A stretch of 64,000 bases of DNA from Candidatus Eisenbergiella merdigallinarum (GTDB lineage Bacteria; Bacillota; Clostridia; Lachnospirales; Lachnospiraceae), in assembly GCA_019119355.1 (NCBI GenBank), contig DWXE01000043.1, positions 87,277 to 151,276 on the forward strand. The letters run 5' to 3'. The position numbers and the translations under genes are program-made. Under the pieces are notes generated by a model. It was not told the origin of the DNA, did no database searches, and worked only from the letters and a program-made list of their open reading frames with translations. Positions 7,163 to 16,247 of this stretch are shown here, in pieces. Each line of letters opens with the position of its first letter. Positions within the stretch are counted from its first letter, which is position 1.

Positions 7163-8098
7163 TTATTCATCCTTATTTTCATCCACAGGCATTTCTCCCA
7201 TATGCTCTGGAATGGCAGCCGCGTCCTCCACAATATCCGTTACGAGCTGGCGGAAGTCATTGGCGTTTTGAGCGGTAATCACCGGCTTGCCGGTGGTTTC
7301 TTCAATCTCTTTCCGGGTGTTTCCGGCAATCGAGCCGCCTTTTTGTGCCACTTTCTGATTTTCAGAAAAAGTAGCAGGCTTTACAGTTTTAGAAATCTCC
7401 GTTGTGGTTGCCTCTGCAAGCATTGTCAAAACGAGTTCCAGATCGCTCATATTATCACGGAGGTTTTCTTTTTTCAAGCCTTTCAGTTTTTTATATTGTC
7501 GTGTCGTCATACCAGACCAGGCGCGGGAAATCTCGTCTGTTAAGATAGCGTATTCCTTGCCTTTCTCCACGCCGCGCCGTTTCCACTCGTCTGTAAGCTC
7601 GTTGCGGATACGGATTGCCAAAAGACGCTGGTGCACCCATTCCTCGGAATATCCTTTTTTCAAATAGGTTTCCAGCGCCCGGTCAATGGTCTGTTCCGGG
7701 TCAATGGTTTCCTCAATCCGTTCCCGGCCCACCATTGCCAGCCATGCCTTGAACGGTTCGGCTTTTGGTGAGGGAATAGACTGGATGATACGCAAAAGCT
7801 GTTCCGTATTGGCAACGTCGGTTTTATATTTTTTTCCATCGGAGGACAGCATCTTCAGTTGTACGATTTTCTCGTACAACTCAACGGCACCCTCCTTTTT
7901 CAGTTTCCGCTTTAAGTCACTCCAATACCGGCGCGGATTTTCAGTGCCAGTTAAAACCGCAATCACATCCACGATGGAAAAATACCATTCTTCCTGTTCT
8001 TCATCCCACGCAGTACGGATTTTCTTATCTTCAAACAACTGGATAGCGTCATTGTTCTGCAATTCTCCCATGAGTATGTACCTCTCTTTCGCTGGCAT
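7163..8098 (-). CDS. Bro-N domain protein (phage antirepressor / DinD-like family)
   Basis: IQLFEDKKIRTAWDEEQEEWYFSIVDVIAVLTGTENPRRYWSDLKRKLKKEG... plus GGSIAGNTRKEIEETTGKPVIT tail. Confidence 0.85.
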   Translation of the reverse strand: MPAKERYILMGELQNNDAIQLFEDKKIRTAWDEEQEEWYFSIVDVIAVLTGTENPRRYWSDLKRKLKKEGAVELYEKIVQLKMLSSDGKKYKTDVANTEQLLRIIQSIPSPKAEPFKAWLAMVGRERIEETIDPEQTIDRALETYLKKGYSEEWVHQRLLAIRIRNELTDEWKRRGVEKGKEYAILTDEISRAWSGMTTRQYKKLKGLKKENLRDNMSDLELVLTMLAEATTTEISKTVKPATFSENQKVAQKGGSIAGNTRKEIEETTGKPVITAQNANDFRQLVTDIVEDAAAIPEHMGEMPVDENKDE

Positions 8099-8464: not shown

Positions 8465-9490
8465 TCAGTTGAATCCGAAAAACTTCTGACAGATTTTATA
8501 TCCTTCTACGGAAATCCAGCGTCCCGTCTTTCCCGGGAGGTTCATGCAGTTGCCCAGAAGACCGTACCGCAGTTTCCGGTAAAGGGATCTGTCCTTCTGT
8601 TTGATATACTCCAGCAGCGCCTTCTTTTTGTCCAGCGCTTCCTGCGTATCGGCCCGGATCAAAAGGATGGATGAGATGGTGGTGATAATGTCCAGATAGC
8701 TGAGCATATAGCGGTTCATCCTCCTGTTGGCCATCAGAACCCCCTTCTTTTCCACATAATAATCCACCATGATCTGATTGACCCTGATCTGCTGGTCGAT
8801 CCTGCCGATCATCACCTTTTCGTTGACGGACTGGTCGGAACGGCCGATATAATAGCGGTAGAAGTTCACGTCCATATAATACATGTTGCGGACGTAGGGA
8901 AGGGGCTCGAACACGTAAATGTTATCCACGTAGAACGTGTGCTCCGGAAGGTGCAGCCCGCATTCCCGAAGGAGCTTCGTCCGGTAGATCACCGAGTGCA
9001 TCAGGATATACTGCCCCTTCATGAAATGGCCCACTTCATCCCAGGTGAAGATCCTGCCCTGGGGGAGGGGATGGCGGTAGCGCATAACCTTCTTCCTCTT
9101 CTCCCCTTCCTTTTCATACACGAAATTGCTGATCATCAGATCCAGCGTCTGCCCGCCTCCGGCCAGCTCCCGGAGCTTGTCCAGAATTTCCAGATAGGCG
9201 TCGTCCTTCACCCAGTCGTCGCTGTCCACCACCTTGAAAAACAGGCCGCTGGCGTTCTCGATTCCCGTGTTCACCGCGGAACCGTGGCCGCCGTTCTCCT
9301 TGTGGATCGCCCGGACGATGGTGGGATATCTGGACTCGTAGTCGTCCGCGATCTCCGCAGTCCTGTCCGAAGAACCGTCGTCCACGATGAGGATCTCCAC
9401 ATCCTCCCCTCCGATGAGCAGCGATTCAATGCACTTTTCCATGTAATTCTGTGAGTTATAGCACGGAATTGCAATCGAAAGCAGTTTCAT
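8465..9490 (-). CDS. Glycosyltransferase family 2
   Basis: MKLLSIAIPCYNSQNYMEKCIESLLIGGEDVEILIVDDGSSDRTAEIADDY... Confidence 0.92.
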   Translation of the reverse strand: MKLLSIAIPCYNSQNYMEKCIESLLIGGEDVEILIVDDGSSDRTAEIADDYESRYPTIVRAIHKENGGHGSAVNTGIENASGLFFKVVDSDDWVKDDAYLEILDKLRELAGGGQTLDLMISNFVYEKEGEKRKKVMRYRHPLPQGRIFTWDEVGHFMKGQYILMHSVIYRTKLLRECGLHLPEHTFYVDNIYVFEPLPYVRNMYYMDVNFYRYYIGRSDQSVNEKVMIGRIDQQIRVNQIMVDYYVEKKGVLMANRRMNRYMLSYLDIITTISSILLIRADTQEALDKKKALLEYIKQKDRSLYRKLRYGLLGNCMNLPGKTGRWISVEGYKICQKFFGFN

Positions 9491-11307
9491 TTCCTTTTTC
9501 CTCCCATTTTTCCCTGTTCCATTCTATCTCTGCCCGTCCGGATGCTCAGACAGGCCGTATAAGCCGCGAAAGCGGACGGGATCGGATATTTCTCCCCGAT
9601 CTCCTCCGGCTGCGCGAAAAGAAGGCCGTTTTCCTTCCCCAAAGGCTCCAGCCCGTCCACCAGCGCCAGATACCCCGTCATTTCCCATTCCCTGTGGGTA
9701 AAAATATGCCGGGAATCCGCCTGCTTCTCCAGGCGTATCGCGCGCACGCCCTGGCTTTTCAGCCAGGCCACCACCTCTTCCTGCGCCAGATGTCCGTCCA
9801 GGCAGGGAAATTCATACAGGCCGGCCAGCAGTCCCCGGTCCGGCCGCTTCCGGATCGCCACGCGGTTCTCGTCCCGGATCAGGAGCACCGTCTTCTTCTC
9901 CGCCTTCCGCGCCTTTTTGGCGCTCTTTTTCGGATAGTCCGCCTGCCTGCCGTCGCGCTTTGCCAGGCAGGCCGACCGCCAGGGACATTTTTCGCAGAGC
10001 GGAGCCCCGTTCGGCAGGCAGACGGTGGCGCCCAGCTCCATCAGCGCCTGATTGAAGTCCCCGGGCCTGTCCGCCGGCATGATCGAAAGCAGCTCCTGAC
10101 CGATCCGGCGCTTTACGGAAGGGTCCGCGATATCCCCTTCGTCCTCCGTCAGGCGGGCGATGATCCGCAGCACGTTGCCGTCCACCGCCGGTGCCGGCTG
10201 GCCGAAGGCGATGGAAGCGATGGCCCCTGCGGTATAGCTGCCGATGCCGGCGAGCTTCTGCAAAGACTCATAGTCCCCCGGCATCCGCCCGCCGTACTCT
10301 TCCATAATCTGAACCGCGGCCCTGTGAAGATTCCTCACCCGGCTGTAATATCCCAGCCCTTCCCACAGCTTCAGCAGCGTATCCTCATCCGCCTCCGCCA
10401 GGGACGCGATATCCGGAAGCCTCTCCATAAACCGGTTGAAATACGGTTTCACCGCCTCCACCCGGGTCTGCTGGAGCATCACTTCCGAAACCCAGACGCG
10501 GTAAGGGGTAACGTCTTCCCGCCAGGGAAGCTTCCTCCTGCACTCATCATACCATGACAGCAGCGGTTCGGCAACGCCGGAGCCGGATGCGTCCAAAAGC
10601 AGCAGCCTGCCCGGCTCCAGGCAGACCGGCACGGGATCTTCCAGCTCCATGCACCCCGGCTCCACACGGCAGTCCCAGGCGACGGCCTTCACGCCGGCCT
10701 CCCTGGCCCGCAGGAGTTCTTCCCCGAACGCCGGGTGCATCTCCCAGTTCGGCACGAAACGGCGGACTCCCTTCATCTGGATCACGAACAGCACATAGCA
10801 CTCGTACCCTTCCTTCGCCGCCTGCGCCAGCTCCCGAACATGCCTGACCGCGCGTTCGGAGGGGGCGTCGGGAAACAGCGCCGTCCTCTGGCGCTCCAGC
10901 GTGACCCCCTTCACCTCGATCAGGATCTTTCTGTCCCCCGCCTCCGCGTAAAAATCGAAACGGGAACTGCCATAGACGGTTTCCGGACGGATCTTCGTGA
11001 GCCCTTTCCAGTAGCGGCCCGACCGGAGGAACTCCAGAACTGCCCGGTTGGGCGCGGCGGAATCCATGTTGATGAGCAGATCCCCCTTCTCCACGGCCAC
11101 CAGATCCCAGGCCGTCTTCCTCGCAGGGTTTTCTCCCTTCGCCAGATAGACCCTGGCCCCGGGGACCAGCAGTTCCCTGCACCTTCCGGTATTCTTTACG
11201 TGCACCGTTTCCGTCCCGCGCACGTCCCCCTGCTGTATTTCCACCTGCGCGATAAACCGGTTTGGCCTGCTCAAAAACCGCCCCGGGATGATCTGCCCGT
11301 ATTCCAT
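9487..11307 (-). CDS. Fusion protein: N-terminal SfsA-type nuclease domain + C-terminal MutY A/G-specific adenine glycosylase
   Basis: Single 606-aa ORF: MEYGQIIPGRFLSRPNRFIAQVEI...LIEVKGVTLER (SfsA) then LPWRED...VSEVMLQQTRVE...AVDGNVLRIIARL...CLPNGAPLCEKCPWRSAC (MutY). Confidence 0.93.
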   Translation of the reverse strand: MEYGQIIPGRFLSRPNRFIAQVEIQQGDVRGTETVHVKNTGRCRELLVPGARVYLAKGENPARKTAWDLVAVEKGDLLINMDSAAPNRAVLEFLRSGRYWKGLTKIRPETVYGSSRFDFYAEAGDRKILIEVKGVTLERQRTALFPDAPSERAVRHVRELAQAAKEGYECYVLFVIQMKGVRRFVPNWEMHPAFGEELLRAREAGVKAVAWDCRVEPGCMELEDPVPVCLEPGRLLLLDASGSGVAEPLLSWYDECRRKLPWREDVTPYRVWVSEVMLQQTRVEAVKPYFNRFMERLPDIASLAEADEDTLLKLWEGLGYYSRVRNLHRAAVQIMEEYGGRMPGDYESLQKLAGIGSYTAGAIASIAFGQPAPAVDGNVLRIIARLTEDEGDIADPSVKRRIGQELLSIMPADRPGDFNQALMELGATVCLPNGAPLCEKCPWRSACLAKRDGRQADYPKKSAKKARKAEKKTVLLIRDENRVAIRKRPDRGLLAGLYEFPCLDGHLAQEEVVAWLKSQGVRAIRLEKQADSRHIFTHREWEMTGYLALVDGLEPLGKENGLLFAQPEEIGEKYPIPSAFAAYTACLSIRTGRDRMEQGKMGGKRK

Positions 11308-11352: not shown

Positions 11353-11985
11353 CTACCGGAGCCGGTTGCACTCGTACCGTTCCAGCGTCAGAAGGCAGTT
11401 CTTCAACGCCTCATACTGCTCCTCCAGGCTTCCCTCGGACAGCTCCAGATCCAGGGAAACCGCCATGGTGTTGAGCATCTTTTGGTCCGCCCGGCCCGCC
11501 AGCTGGTCGAAGACCTCCAGCTTCTTTTCGTAGCTGTCCGCCTCCAGAAACGCCAGCAGCCCGGGATCCAGCTCAAACGCTTCCTCATCCGCCGCCGGCC
11601 CGGCTCCCTCCGGCGCCGTCCCCGGCTTCGCTTCTTCCCGTTCTGACGGCTCTCCGGCCGGTTTGAGCTGGGCGTCCGGCCCGGCCGAGGCCCCGGCTTC
11701 CTCAGAAGGCGGCACGGGCGTGCCGGCAGCGGGAGCCCCGGCCAGCGTCCCGGCTTCCGGAATCAGCGTAAAGCGATACCGGTCCTGCGCTTCGGAGTAT
11801 TTTTCACGATCGACCTCTCCCAGAAACAGGGACAGAGGCCTGGCGTACACCGGATAATCCCCGTACAGCCCCTGATAGACCACCAGCTGCTCCCCCGTCT
11901 CCGCGTGCTGTGCCAGCGTCACGATCCGATAAAGATTTCCCTTGAAGTGCCGATAAATTTCTCCCTGTCCGGGGATCCGTCTCAT
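11353..11985 (-). CDS. DUF1653 domain protein
   Basis: GEIYRHFKGNLYRIVTLAQHAETGEQLVVYQGLYGDYPVYARPLSLFLGEVDREKY. Confidence 0.85.
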   Translation of the reverse strand: MRRIPGQGEIYRHFKGNLYRIVTLAQHAETGEQLVVYQGLYGDYPVYARPLSLFLGEVDREKYSEAQDRYRFTLIPEAGTLAGAPAAGTPVPPSEEAGASAGPDAQLKPAGEPSEREEAKPGTAPEGAGPAADEEAFELDPGLLAFLEADSYEKKLEVFDQLAGRADQKMLNTMAVSLDLELSEGSLEEQYEALKNCLLTLERYECNRLR

Positions 11986-12098: not shown

Positions 12099-14165
12099 CT
12101 ATTTTTCGTCCCTGGCCGGCCTCGTATCCATCTCCAGCACCAGCTCCCCGCCGGCCACGATCTCCTCATGGGTCAGAAACGGCCTTGCCAGCGGTTTCCC
12201 GTTGAGGATGGCCGAACGGATATACCGCTTTCCGTCGCCCGCGCCCAGGCTGACGATCCGGAAGACCTTTCCTTTCCCCACCTGGAGTTCCGCCCGGTCG
12301 AACAGCGGCGTCCCAAGGGCGTATTCCGCCTTTCCCGGGCAGACGGGATAGAAGCCCAGCGCGGAAAAGACGAACCAGCTGGACATGGCCCCGCCGTCCT
12401 CGTCCCCGCAGATGCCCGTGGGGGAATCCGTAAACCAGATGTCCATCAGCTCCCGCAGCTTCTTCTGCGCCTTCCAGGGCGCGCCGTAATAGTCGTACAG
12501 ATAGGGAATGTGAAACGACGGTTCGTTTCCCATGGCGAACTGCCCCATCAGCCCGGTGGAATCCGGAAACTGTCCCAGATAGACGTACTTGCTCTCGGGC
12601 CACCGAAAGCCTTCCCGAAAGAGCTGATCCAGCCGCGCCACGGCGGCCTCCTTTCCTCCCATCAGCTCCGCCAGCCCCTCCGGATCGTGGAACACCGACC
12701 AGGTGTAGGTCCAGGTGTTGTTTTCGGTGGTGTAATCCCTTCCGCCCATGCCGCCGGAAAACTTCGGATCGAAATCCTCCACCCAGTTGCCCCGGCTGTC
12801 CTTCGGGGACATCCAGCCGTTTTCCGGGTTGTAGAGGTTGCGGTAATTCTGGCTCCTCTTCGTAAAGATCCGGCAGTCCTCTTCCTTTCCCAGATGCTCT
12901 GCCAGACGGGCCGCGCACCAGTCGTCGTAGGCGTGCTCCAGGGTGACGGCCACAGCCTGCCGGCGCTCGAAGGTCTTTCCGCTCTCGCAGGTTTCCTCTT
13001 CCCCTTTGGCCAGGGCGGGGAAATAGCCCCGCTCCTGATAGCACAGATCCGGCGCTTCCAGGGGTTTATCGCAGCACCAGGGGAACATGCTCTGCTCCAT
13101 GGCGTTTTTGCGGATCCCTTCGTAGGCGGTGGCGTAATCCGCCTCCACCCCCTTTGCCAGCGCGTCCGCGAACAGCGCCGCCGCGTGGAACCCGATCATC
13201 ACCGGCAGATCTCCCGTCAGGCCCGGGAAGCAGGGCATCAGGCCGCTCTGCTCGTACATCCGGTTGTAGCTCTCCAGAATGTCCCTGTGGCGTCCGGGAT
13301 CCAGCAGAAGCTGCAGCGGGTGCATGCAGCGGAAGGTGTCCCAGAGCCCGTCCCCGGTATAAAAGACGCCGTCGTGCACCTTCCTGTCATAGCCGCTGAA
13401 ATACTGTCCGTGTTCCGTGTAGTCGGTCATGCGCATGAAGGAACGGAACAGGGCGGTATAGTAAACGGTCTTCTTCTCCTCCGTATTCCCTTCCACCCGC
13501 GCTCTGGAAAGCTGGTCGTCCCAGATCCGCTTCGCCTCGGATGCGATCCGTTCGAAGTCCTTCCCCGCCGTCTCCTTCTCCAGGCTCTCCGCCGCTTTTT
13601 CGAAGGAAATATACGACACGGCCCCCATGACGCAGGCGTCGGAGGGCGCGGAGAGGATCCAGCGCCCCTGCTCCCGGGACAAAACCCGCGCCCCTTCCGG
13701 CATCCGGATCAGCACGTACTGGAAGACCGGATCCGACGGGTCACCTTCCGGCATCCGCACCCGGATCAGGCCGCCGTCCTCCGACGCTTCCCCTCCTTCA
13801 AAATCCAGGCGCAGCCCGTCCGCTCCGGCAAAACGATGCGCGTACACGTGGGCCGTCACCGTGGAGGCCGCCGTAATCCCGTGCTCCTCCAGCTCCGCCT
13901 CCATCCGGTAGCACTTAAAATCCTCCCGGCTGTGATCCAGCGCGTTTTCGAAATCGCCGCCCCTGCCCGGCATCACAGAGACCAGCCCCAGGGGATAGCC
14001 CAGGATCCTGTCGTTGCAGTAATAGTCCCCGCAGTCTTTGACCACGGGCGTGCTTCTGGCCATTCCGTAGGGCAGCATGACCTCCGGCCTGGTGGAAGCC
14101 AGCATGTGGGAAATCGTTCCGATATAAGGGTTTACATAATCCGCAGGTGTTTTCATCTTCTCCAT
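12099..14165 (-). CDS. GH92 family glycoside hydrolase (alpha-mannosidase)
   Basis: DYVNPYIGTISHMLASTRPEVMLPYGMAR...; GICGDEDGGAMSSWFVFSALGFYPVCPG signature. Confidence 0.93.
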   Translation of the reverse strand: MEKMKTPADYVNPYIGTISHMLASTRPEVMLPYGMARSTPVVKDCGDYYCNDRILGYPLGLVSVMPGRGGDFENALDHSREDFKCYRMEAELEEHGITAASTVTAHVYAHRFAGADGLRLDFEGGEASEDGGLIRVRMPEGDPSDPVFQYVLIRMPEGARVLSREQGRWILSAPSDACVMGAVSYISFEKAAESLEKETAGKDFERIASEAKRIWDDQLSRARVEGNTEEKKTVYYTALFRSFMRMTDYTEHGQYFSGYDRKVHDGVFYTGDGLWDTFRCMHPLQLLLDPGRHRDILESYNRMYEQSGLMPCFPGLTGDLPVMIGFHAAALFADALAKGVEADYATAYEGIRKNAMEQSMFPWCCDKPLEAPDLCYQERGYFPALAKGEEETCESGKTFERRQAVAVTLEHAYDDWCAARLAEHLGKEEDCRIFTKRSQNYRNLYNPENGWMSPKDSRGNWVEDFDPKFSGGMGGRDYTTENNTWTYTWSVFHDPEGLAELMGGKEAAVARLDQLFREGFRWPESKYVYLGQFPDSTGLMGQFAMGNEPSFHIPYLYDYYGAPWKAQKKLRELMDIWFTDSPTGICGDEDGGAMSSWFVFSALGFYPVCPGKAEYALGTPLFDRAELQVGKGKVFRIVSLGAGDGKRYIRSAILNGKPLARPFLTHEEIVAGGELVLEMDTRPARDEK

Positions 14166-14384: not shown

Positions 14385-16247
14385 TTACATGTTCCGGAAC
14401 CGTTCGTAGCGCTGCCGGGCCAGCTCCTCCCCGGAGAGCCGCAGATAGCGGGACAGGAATTCCCCCAGCATCTCCTTCATGTCGCCGGCGATCTTTTCCA
14501 CGTGCTTTTTCTCCGCGGGCTCCTCTTCCGGGATGACGCGCTCGATCAGCCCCATCTCCTTTAAGTCCGCGGCCGTGATCTTCATCACCTCCGCCGCCTT
14601 CTGAGCCAGGCGGCTGTCCTTCCAGAGGATGCTGGCGAACCCTTCCGGCGACAGGATGGAATAACTCGCGTTTTCCATCATCCAGACTTCGTTGGCCACG
14701 GCCAGGGCCAGGGCGCCGCCGCTGCCCCCCTCCCCGATCAGGATGGAGAGCACGGGAACCTTCATGTCAGCCATTTCGAACAGGTTGCGGGCGATGGCCT
14801 CCCCCTGTCCCCGTTCCTCGGCCTCCATGCCGCAGAACGCGCCCGGGGTATCCACGAAGCAGACGATGGGACGGCCGAATTTCTCCGCCTGCTTCATCAG
14901 GCGAAGGGCCTTCCTGTATCCGTCCGGAGAGGGCATTCCGAAGTTGCGCACCTGGTTTTCCTTCGCGCTGCGCCCCTTCTCCTGACCGATGACGGTGACC
15001 GGGATCCCCTCCTGGCGCGTCCCGTCCTGCTGCCCCTTCGGATAAAAGGTGGCGAGCCCGGCGATCACCGCTCCGTCGTCCTTAAAATACCGGTCGCCGT
15101 GCAGCTCGTAAAAATCCGGGAACAGCGCCTGAATGTAATCGCTGGCCACGGGCCGCTTCGGGCTTCTGGAAAGGGTCACGATGTCCCAGGCGCTGCGCCC
15201 CTTCTCCTCCGGCCCAGCCTCCTTCCCGGCGTCCGGGGCAGCATCGGGACCGCCCTGCAATCCCCGCTTTTCTCCGGAACCGGGCTGCTCCGCTGCGGAC
15301 AGCGGCACGACGGGCGATGCGGACGGCGGCACCTCGTTCGATGCGGCAGCCGGCACGGATCCTGCCTTCTGCGCGGCCCTGTCGTGAAACGAAAGGATCC
15401 TGGACAGCTCTTCCCTCATCTGAGGGCGCTTCACGATCCGGTCCACGAAACCGTGCTCCAGCAGAAATTCCGCCCGCTGGAACCCTTCCGGCAGCTTCTG
15501 GCCGATGGTCTGCTCGATGACCCTGGGCCCGGCGAAGCCGATCAGCGCCCCGGGTTCCGCCAGGATGATATCCCCCAGCATGGCGAAGCTGGCCGTCACG
15601 CCCCCGGTGGTGGGGTCCGTCAGCACGCTGACGTAAAGAAGGCCCGCTTCGTGGTGTCTTTTCAGGGCCGCCGCGGTTTTGGCCATCTGCATCAGGGAAA
15701 CGAGCCCCTCCTGCATCCGGGCTCCTCCCGAGCAGGCGAACAGGATCACCGGCAGCTTCTCCCGGGTAGCCCGCTCCACCGCCAGCGCGATCTTCTCGCC
15801 CACATTGTGCCCCATGCTGCTCATCAGAAACCGGGAGTCGCAGACGCCGATCACCGCAGGCTGCCCTTCGATGGTCCCCTTTCCGGTGACCACGGCTTCG
15901 TCCAGCCCCGTCCTCTCCCTGGAGGATTCCAGCTTCTTTTCATAGCCCGGGAAATCCAGCGGGTTGACGAAGGGCATGGTCTCTTCAAATTCTACGAATG
16001 AGCCCTCGTCCAGCACCTGCTCCAGCCGCTTTCTGGCGGGGACCCTGAAATAAGCGTGGCATTTGGGGCAGATATAGAACTGCTGCCGCACGTCCTCCGC
16101 ATAAATCGGCCTCCCGCACTGATTGCATTTCTTCCACATGCCTTCCGGAACGTTGGGCTTTTCCCCTTCCGGCGCTTTTCTGGCCTGCTGCGCCTGATGC
16201 ACCTCTCCGATCAGCGTATAGGTTTTCTTGAACATTCCCTGAAGCAT
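14385..16247 (-). CDS. Fused acetyl-CoA carboxylase carboxyltransferase beta-alpha (AccD-AccA)
   Basis: [34 protein letters not shown] (AccD zinc ribbon) ... [45 protein letters not shown] (AccA) in one 620-aa ORF. Confidence 0.95.

Follow-up and report, generated by a model that had tools for sequence, protein, structure and literature searches.

A conserved single-chain fusion of SfsA and MutY in Lachnospiraceae

Background

SfsA has been known since early Escherichia coli genetics; its structures have been solved and a nuclease site has been predicted, and to our knowledge a function on which all agree is still missing for the family. MutY excises adenine opposite 8-oxoguanine (8-oxoG), leaving an abasic site in a strand that is not cut.

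The window analysed here is a stretch of 64,000 nucleotides from Candidatus Eisenbergiella merdigallinarum (assembly GCA_019119355.1, contig DWXE01000043.1, positions 87,277 to 151,276 of the forward strand), and it carries one gene in which the two families are joined. PMC1189080 presents SfsA as a predicted PD-(D/E)XK nuclease with an OB-fold, gives its motif as ID-EVK, and cites Takeda et al. 2001 for non-specific DNA binding by E. coli SfsA. Nuclease activity of SfsA is treated below as a prediction from homology, fold, and PDB entries. No report of a nuclease assay on SfsA was found in the titles and abstracts of the literature searched, and no description of an SfsA-MutY fusion was found in that literature (subscription journals and preprints lay outside its coverage). 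Within that coverage, the SfsA-MutY protein is a new combination of domains from two known families, and it is well conserved.

Fusion gene and domain structure

The initial annotation described an uninterrupted open reading frame of 606 amino acids at 9487-11307. The frame is open as described, and its strand was corrected to minus; the plus strand is not open over this interval and has a stop codon inside it. The gene, its domains, and its immediate neighbors are as follows.

9487..11307, minus strand: SfsA-MutY fusion gene, 606 aa; ATG at 11307, stop codon at 9489-9487
11068..11274, minus strand: SfsA N-terminal OB-fold domain, residues 12-80 (Pfam PF17746, 1.9e-24)
10657..11055, minus strand: SfsA PD-(D/E)XK nuclease-like domain, residues 85-217 (Pfam PF03749, 7.3e-45)
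10573..10617, minus strand: short junction, predicted to be helical, at about residues 231-245; model confidence is lowest at 240-242
9790..10572, minus strand: MutY catalytic part, residues 246-506, reaching past the glycosylase into the NUDIX region (TIGR01084 match)
9556..9891, minus strand: MutY NUDIX-like C-terminal domain, residues 473-584, with the FTH motif (F536, H538) (Pfam PF14815, 2e-24)
8465..9490, minus strand: GT2 glycosyltransferase; its start overlaps the fusion stop by 4 nt, and it is kept as the downstream neighbor of mutY in many relatives
11353..11985, minus strand: DUF1653 protein, 45 nt upstream of the fusion; kept as the upstream neighbor in many relatives

Both halves of the single chain passed their NCBIfam equivalog cut-offs, with 169.3 bits against 126.5 for sfsA (TIGR00230) and 329.5 bits against 286.5 for mutY (TIGR01084). 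Pfam matches were obtained to SfsA_N (12-80), SfsA (85-217), HhH-GPD (273-396), HHH (338-366), and NUDIX_4 (473-584). These results bear out the initial description of a complete SfsA joined to a complete MutY. An in-frame ATG at M220 could act as an internal start for a MutY-only product.

In the SfsA half, D118, E131, and K133 make up the D...ExK motif of the PD-(D/E)XK site. These three residues never varied in the alignment, which held 78 fusions, 23 adjacent genes, 53 separate genes, and 54 SfsAs from outside the family; close to fifty positions were invariant in the SfsA part of a 68-row alignment. In the MutY half, the motifs are EVMLQQT (E275), VDGN (D376), and C430-x7-C438-x2-C441-x5-C447. 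The catalytic Glu, the Asp, the cysteine motif, and the NUDIX-like C-terminus named in the initial annotation are all present and constant among the relatives: E275, Y358, D376, N378, the four cysteines (430/438/441/447), F536, and H538 were unchanged in 77/77 fusions, and the four Fe-S cysteines were constant in all rows of the alignment.

An AlphaFold model of the fusion, built with 68 sequences, had a mean pLDDT of 92.4 and a pTM of 0.77, with two well-formed parts and a weak segment at residues 240-242. The SfsA half of the model matched E. coli SfsA (4dap) with a TMt of 0.92 and the P. furiosus SfsA-DNA structure (4dav) with 0.89, and the MutY half matched MutY-DNA complexes with a TMt of about 0.86. 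With the SfsA domain as Foldseek query, matches other than SfsA were marginal (EndoMS 5gke, E about 1e-3, TM 0.31) and were set aside. Although each domain was modeled with confidence, their relative orientation is left unclaimed, since the linker is weak, the pTM is 0.77, and the inter-domain error was not given. In most fusions the first MutY helix (PLLxWYD) begins within about ten residues of the last SfsA strand (VPVxL), and the segment from G205 to R263 spans 50-54 residues. In a few lineages the linker is longer by up to about 50 low-complexity residues, and thus a rigid geometry between the halves is not required.

Neighboring genes

In relatives, the order is often DUF1653, 5'-nucleotidase, sfsA-mutY, GT2, and, further on, SHMT; the window is without the 5'-nucleotidase gene. 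This PF06189 gene is commonly found immediately before sfsA-mutY (for example at loci L034, L042, L070, L080, L084, L103, and L293), at a median gap of about 18 nt (38 loci). Elsewhere in the window and on the same minus strand are a GH92 enzyme of 688 aa (12099-14165), whose N-terminal domain matches the Pfam N-domain profile over only about half its length, and a 311-aa BRO-N protein (7163-8098) between two glycosyltransferase genes; the BRO-N domain is frequent in phage-related genes.

A second single-chain protein is encoded at 14385-16247 (minus strand). Its 620 residues comprise an AccD-like part with a zinc ribbon followed by AccA, the carboxyltransferase subunits of acetyl-CoA carboxylase. 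A 484-aa fusion of SfsA to a HAD hydrolase was found elsewhere in the class, in another family (L255:449-1900). With AccD-AccA in the window and SfsA-HAD in the class, fusion of neighbors is not rare here, and it does not by itself imply a common reaction.

Distribution of the fusion

The family was scanned with one genome per genus (299 genera); it was recognized as Lachnospiraceae by its named relatives (among them Eisenbergiella, Parablautia, Acetatifactor, and Robinsoniella). SfsA was found in 155 genera, MutY (counted at E <= 1e-50) in 213, and both in 125. The two were fused in 34 genera, the fused state being scored as one long frame across both parts, with at least one of the 34 (G113) reaching a contig end. 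Another 18 genera had sfsA directly followed by mutY on the same strand. Both genes were apart or not seen together in 73 genera, a count in which adjacency was partly judged from contig coordinates, a small number of pairs may be lost at contig ends, and the MutY position is not listed for a few genera. SfsA alone occurred in 30 genera, MutY alone in 88, and neither in 56. The 86 genera without a MutY match at E <= 1e-50 include nearly complete genomes, so MutY loss is common in the family.

The raw odds ratio for co-occurrence of SfsA and MutY over the 299 genera was 2.65 (p = 2e-4, with relatedness ignored). Joint presence is built into this value for the fused and adjacent genera; once they are removed the counts are 73/30/88/56 and the association is much weaker. 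Co-occurrence was therefore dropped as evidence for coupling.

The architecture was confirmed in relatives, far beyond what chance would give, by 77 further distinct full or near-full fusions; those in the 68-row alignment share 51-65% identity with the window protein. Several lie on long contigs or in complete genomes, and cultured strains (Eisenbergiella porci and Parablautia) are represented. Outside the family, no SfsA-MutY fusion occurred among the SfsA matches listed in the order and class scans, and MutY was found within about 1.4 kb at none of the 56 SfsA loci fetched.

Only one SfsA, the fused copy, was found in the window genome, and no second MutY above the family cut-off was found there or in any of the ten fused genomes tested. 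The window assembly consists of 46 contigs and is about 90% complete, which lends something to the view of an artefact, in which a sequencing indel or faulty binning merged separate genes. That explanation has a negligible probability: the 77 other fusions, among them those of complete genomes and cultured strains, hold one frame across the junction, and both parts retain their motifs. The case foreseen in the initial annotation, in which relatives carry separate genes and the frame results from an indel, is thereby excluded, as the relatives include fused, adjacent, and separate states.

Phylogeny and origin

The adjacent pairs represent probable precursor states of the fusion. Several have a single in-frame stop codon between the two frames, and others overlap or lie up to about 150-180 nt apart. 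In the SfsA tree, 77 of the 78 fusions fell into one clade of 86 rows (SH-aLRT 93), together with four adjacent and five other SfsAs. The MutY tree contained a 21-row fused group (SH-aLRT 100) set among adjacent and separate genes, which splits the fusions. AU tests did not reject a single fusion clade (p-AU 0.42 without L121 and 0.17 with it). The two trees disagree, and the AU tests reject neither one origin nor several.

A search for fusion-specific residues singled out only S150, A153, and V157. The first two belong to the FPDAPSERA-x2-H motif (residues 145-156), in which T150/G153 (FPDAPTERG) has changed to S150/A153 in 75 of the 78 fusions. The S/A pair also occurs in 8 unfused SfsAs of the family (4 adjacent, 4 separate) and in 2 from another family, and it is missing in 3 fusions; it thus marks a lineage and not the fusion. 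Two SfsAs from another family of the same order (L157 and L166) carry S150/A153, lie inside the fused SfsA clade, and have no MutY nearby; the SfsA half may have reached them by horizontal transfer. The L121 fusion has T/G at 150/153, its linker is long and repetitive, and its SfsA belongs to another clade, which makes a second independent fusion likely. The favored history has one fusion event in a large lineage to which the window belongs and, probably, at least one further independent event.

Within the fused lineage there are also MutY-only genes, with the DUF1653 or 5'-nucleotidase gene directly upstream and SfsA missing. These point to loss of the SfsA half and retention of MutY in close relatives.

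Discussion

The reading favored here, at a probability of about two in three, is that the protein is genuinely bifunctional and derived from two neighboring operon genes, with each half keeping its own task and the gain lying in equal amounts and tethering. In an ancestor within the family, sfsA would have been placed directly upstream of mutY, after which the sfsA stop codon would have been lost and the halves joined through a linker of about ten residues. The MutY half would excise adenine opposite 8-oxoG as ordinary MutY does, and the SfsA half would be an OB-fold DNA-binding, metal-dependent PD-(D/E)XK nuclease that retains its ancestral task. The join would then mainly provide equal amounts and tethering of two DNA-acting enzymes. 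This reading is preferred since AP endonucleases are present in the fused genomes, SfsA and MutY are each common alone, and SfsA-HAD and AccD-AccA provide comparable fusions. As to why the halves are joined, the odds are about even that co-expression and tethering of independent functions were the reason, and some other reason is improbable. Persistence in so many genera might not be expected from co-expression alone, which counts against the favored reading.

The main competing explanation is that the two halves carry out successive steps of one repair event, with the SfsA nuclease acting on the product of MutY, either the abasic site opposite 8-oxoG or the surrounding DNA. It has several points in its favor, in that the active sites of both halves are invariant in all fusions, DNA binding is common to the two families (there is a DNA-bound structure of P. 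furiosus SfsA, and the structures matched by MutY are complexes with DNA), most fusions have a short linker, and the fused SfsA lineage shares S150/A153 in an otherwise near-universal motif; moreover, MutY is expected to leave its abasic site uncut, so that a partner nuclease is chemically plausible. Against it, Nfo and XthA are both encoded in every fused genome checked. SfsA is therefore not needed to open the abasic site, and a role of the SfsA half as a substitute AP endonuclease is not supported in those genomes. The coupled step is further weakened by the 30 genera with SfsA and no MutY and the 88 with the reverse, by the MutY-only genes of the fused lineage that have no SfsA upstream, by linkers that are up to about 50 residues longer, and by the S/A variant being found in 8 unfused SfsAs of the family and 2 from another and missing from 3 fusions. 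A coupled repair step is accordingly rated unlikely, both as a reading of the protein and as the reason for the join, and it is doubtful that the SfsA domain is a dedicated second 8-oxoG repair enzyme that incises or trims DNA where the attached MutY has left an abasic site. The suggestion in the initial annotation that a repair intermediate or oxidised nucleic acid is the target of SfsA is possible but gained no support from any of the analyses: Nfo and XthA are present, many genera have SfsA or MutY alone, MutY survives loss of the SfsA half in the fused lineage, and SfsA is also fused to an unrelated HAD hydrolase.

Non-specific DNA binding by E. coli SfsA (Takeda et al. 2001, as cited in PMC1189080) would suit an SfsA half that is a mere DNA-binding tether for MutY and whose nuclease site is vestigial. 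Drift would be expected in such a site, whereas D118, E131, K133, and many other SfsA positions are constant in 78 fusions, and this explanation is considered very improbable.

The conserved fusion is a good experimental handle on SfsA as an orphan nuclease. A single-chain SfsA-MutY that is the sole MutY of the fused gut bacteria checked permits a cheap and concrete test of a DNA-repair role for SfsA. If the halves cooperate, an orphan nuclease family gains a pathway, and if SfsA were to work at the abasic site made by MutY, the SfsA family would have its first defined physiological substrate. If the halves are independent, the protein is a clean example of operon neighbors fused without shared chemistry, and a caution on Rosetta-stone inference.

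Comparison with known systems

Three described or observed arrangements are closest to the fusion. With MutY (TIGR01084; G. stearothermophilus MutY, PDB 1rrq/1rrs/6u7t) it shares the catalytic Glu and Asp, the HhH motif, the four Fe-S cysteines, and a NUDIX_4 domain with F-x-H; it differs in bearing an SfsA extension of about 236 residues at the N terminus and in its Fe-S spacing of C-x7-C-x2-C-x5-C, one residue more than in the aligned MutY chain. With SfsA (TIGR00230, PF17746 and PF03749; 4dap and 4dav) it has in common the OB-fold N-domain, the D...ExK residues, and the FPDxx-x-x-R-x-x-x-H motif, whereas the C terminus of its SfsA part continues into MutY and, in the main fused lineage, residues 150 and 153 are S/A and not the T/G of most other SfsAs. 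The adjacent sfsA-mutY pairs of 18 other genera (e.g., Robinsoniella peoriensis, L094) have the same gene order and strand, often only a few nucleotides or one stop codon apart; those pairs make two polypeptides, and the fusion makes one.
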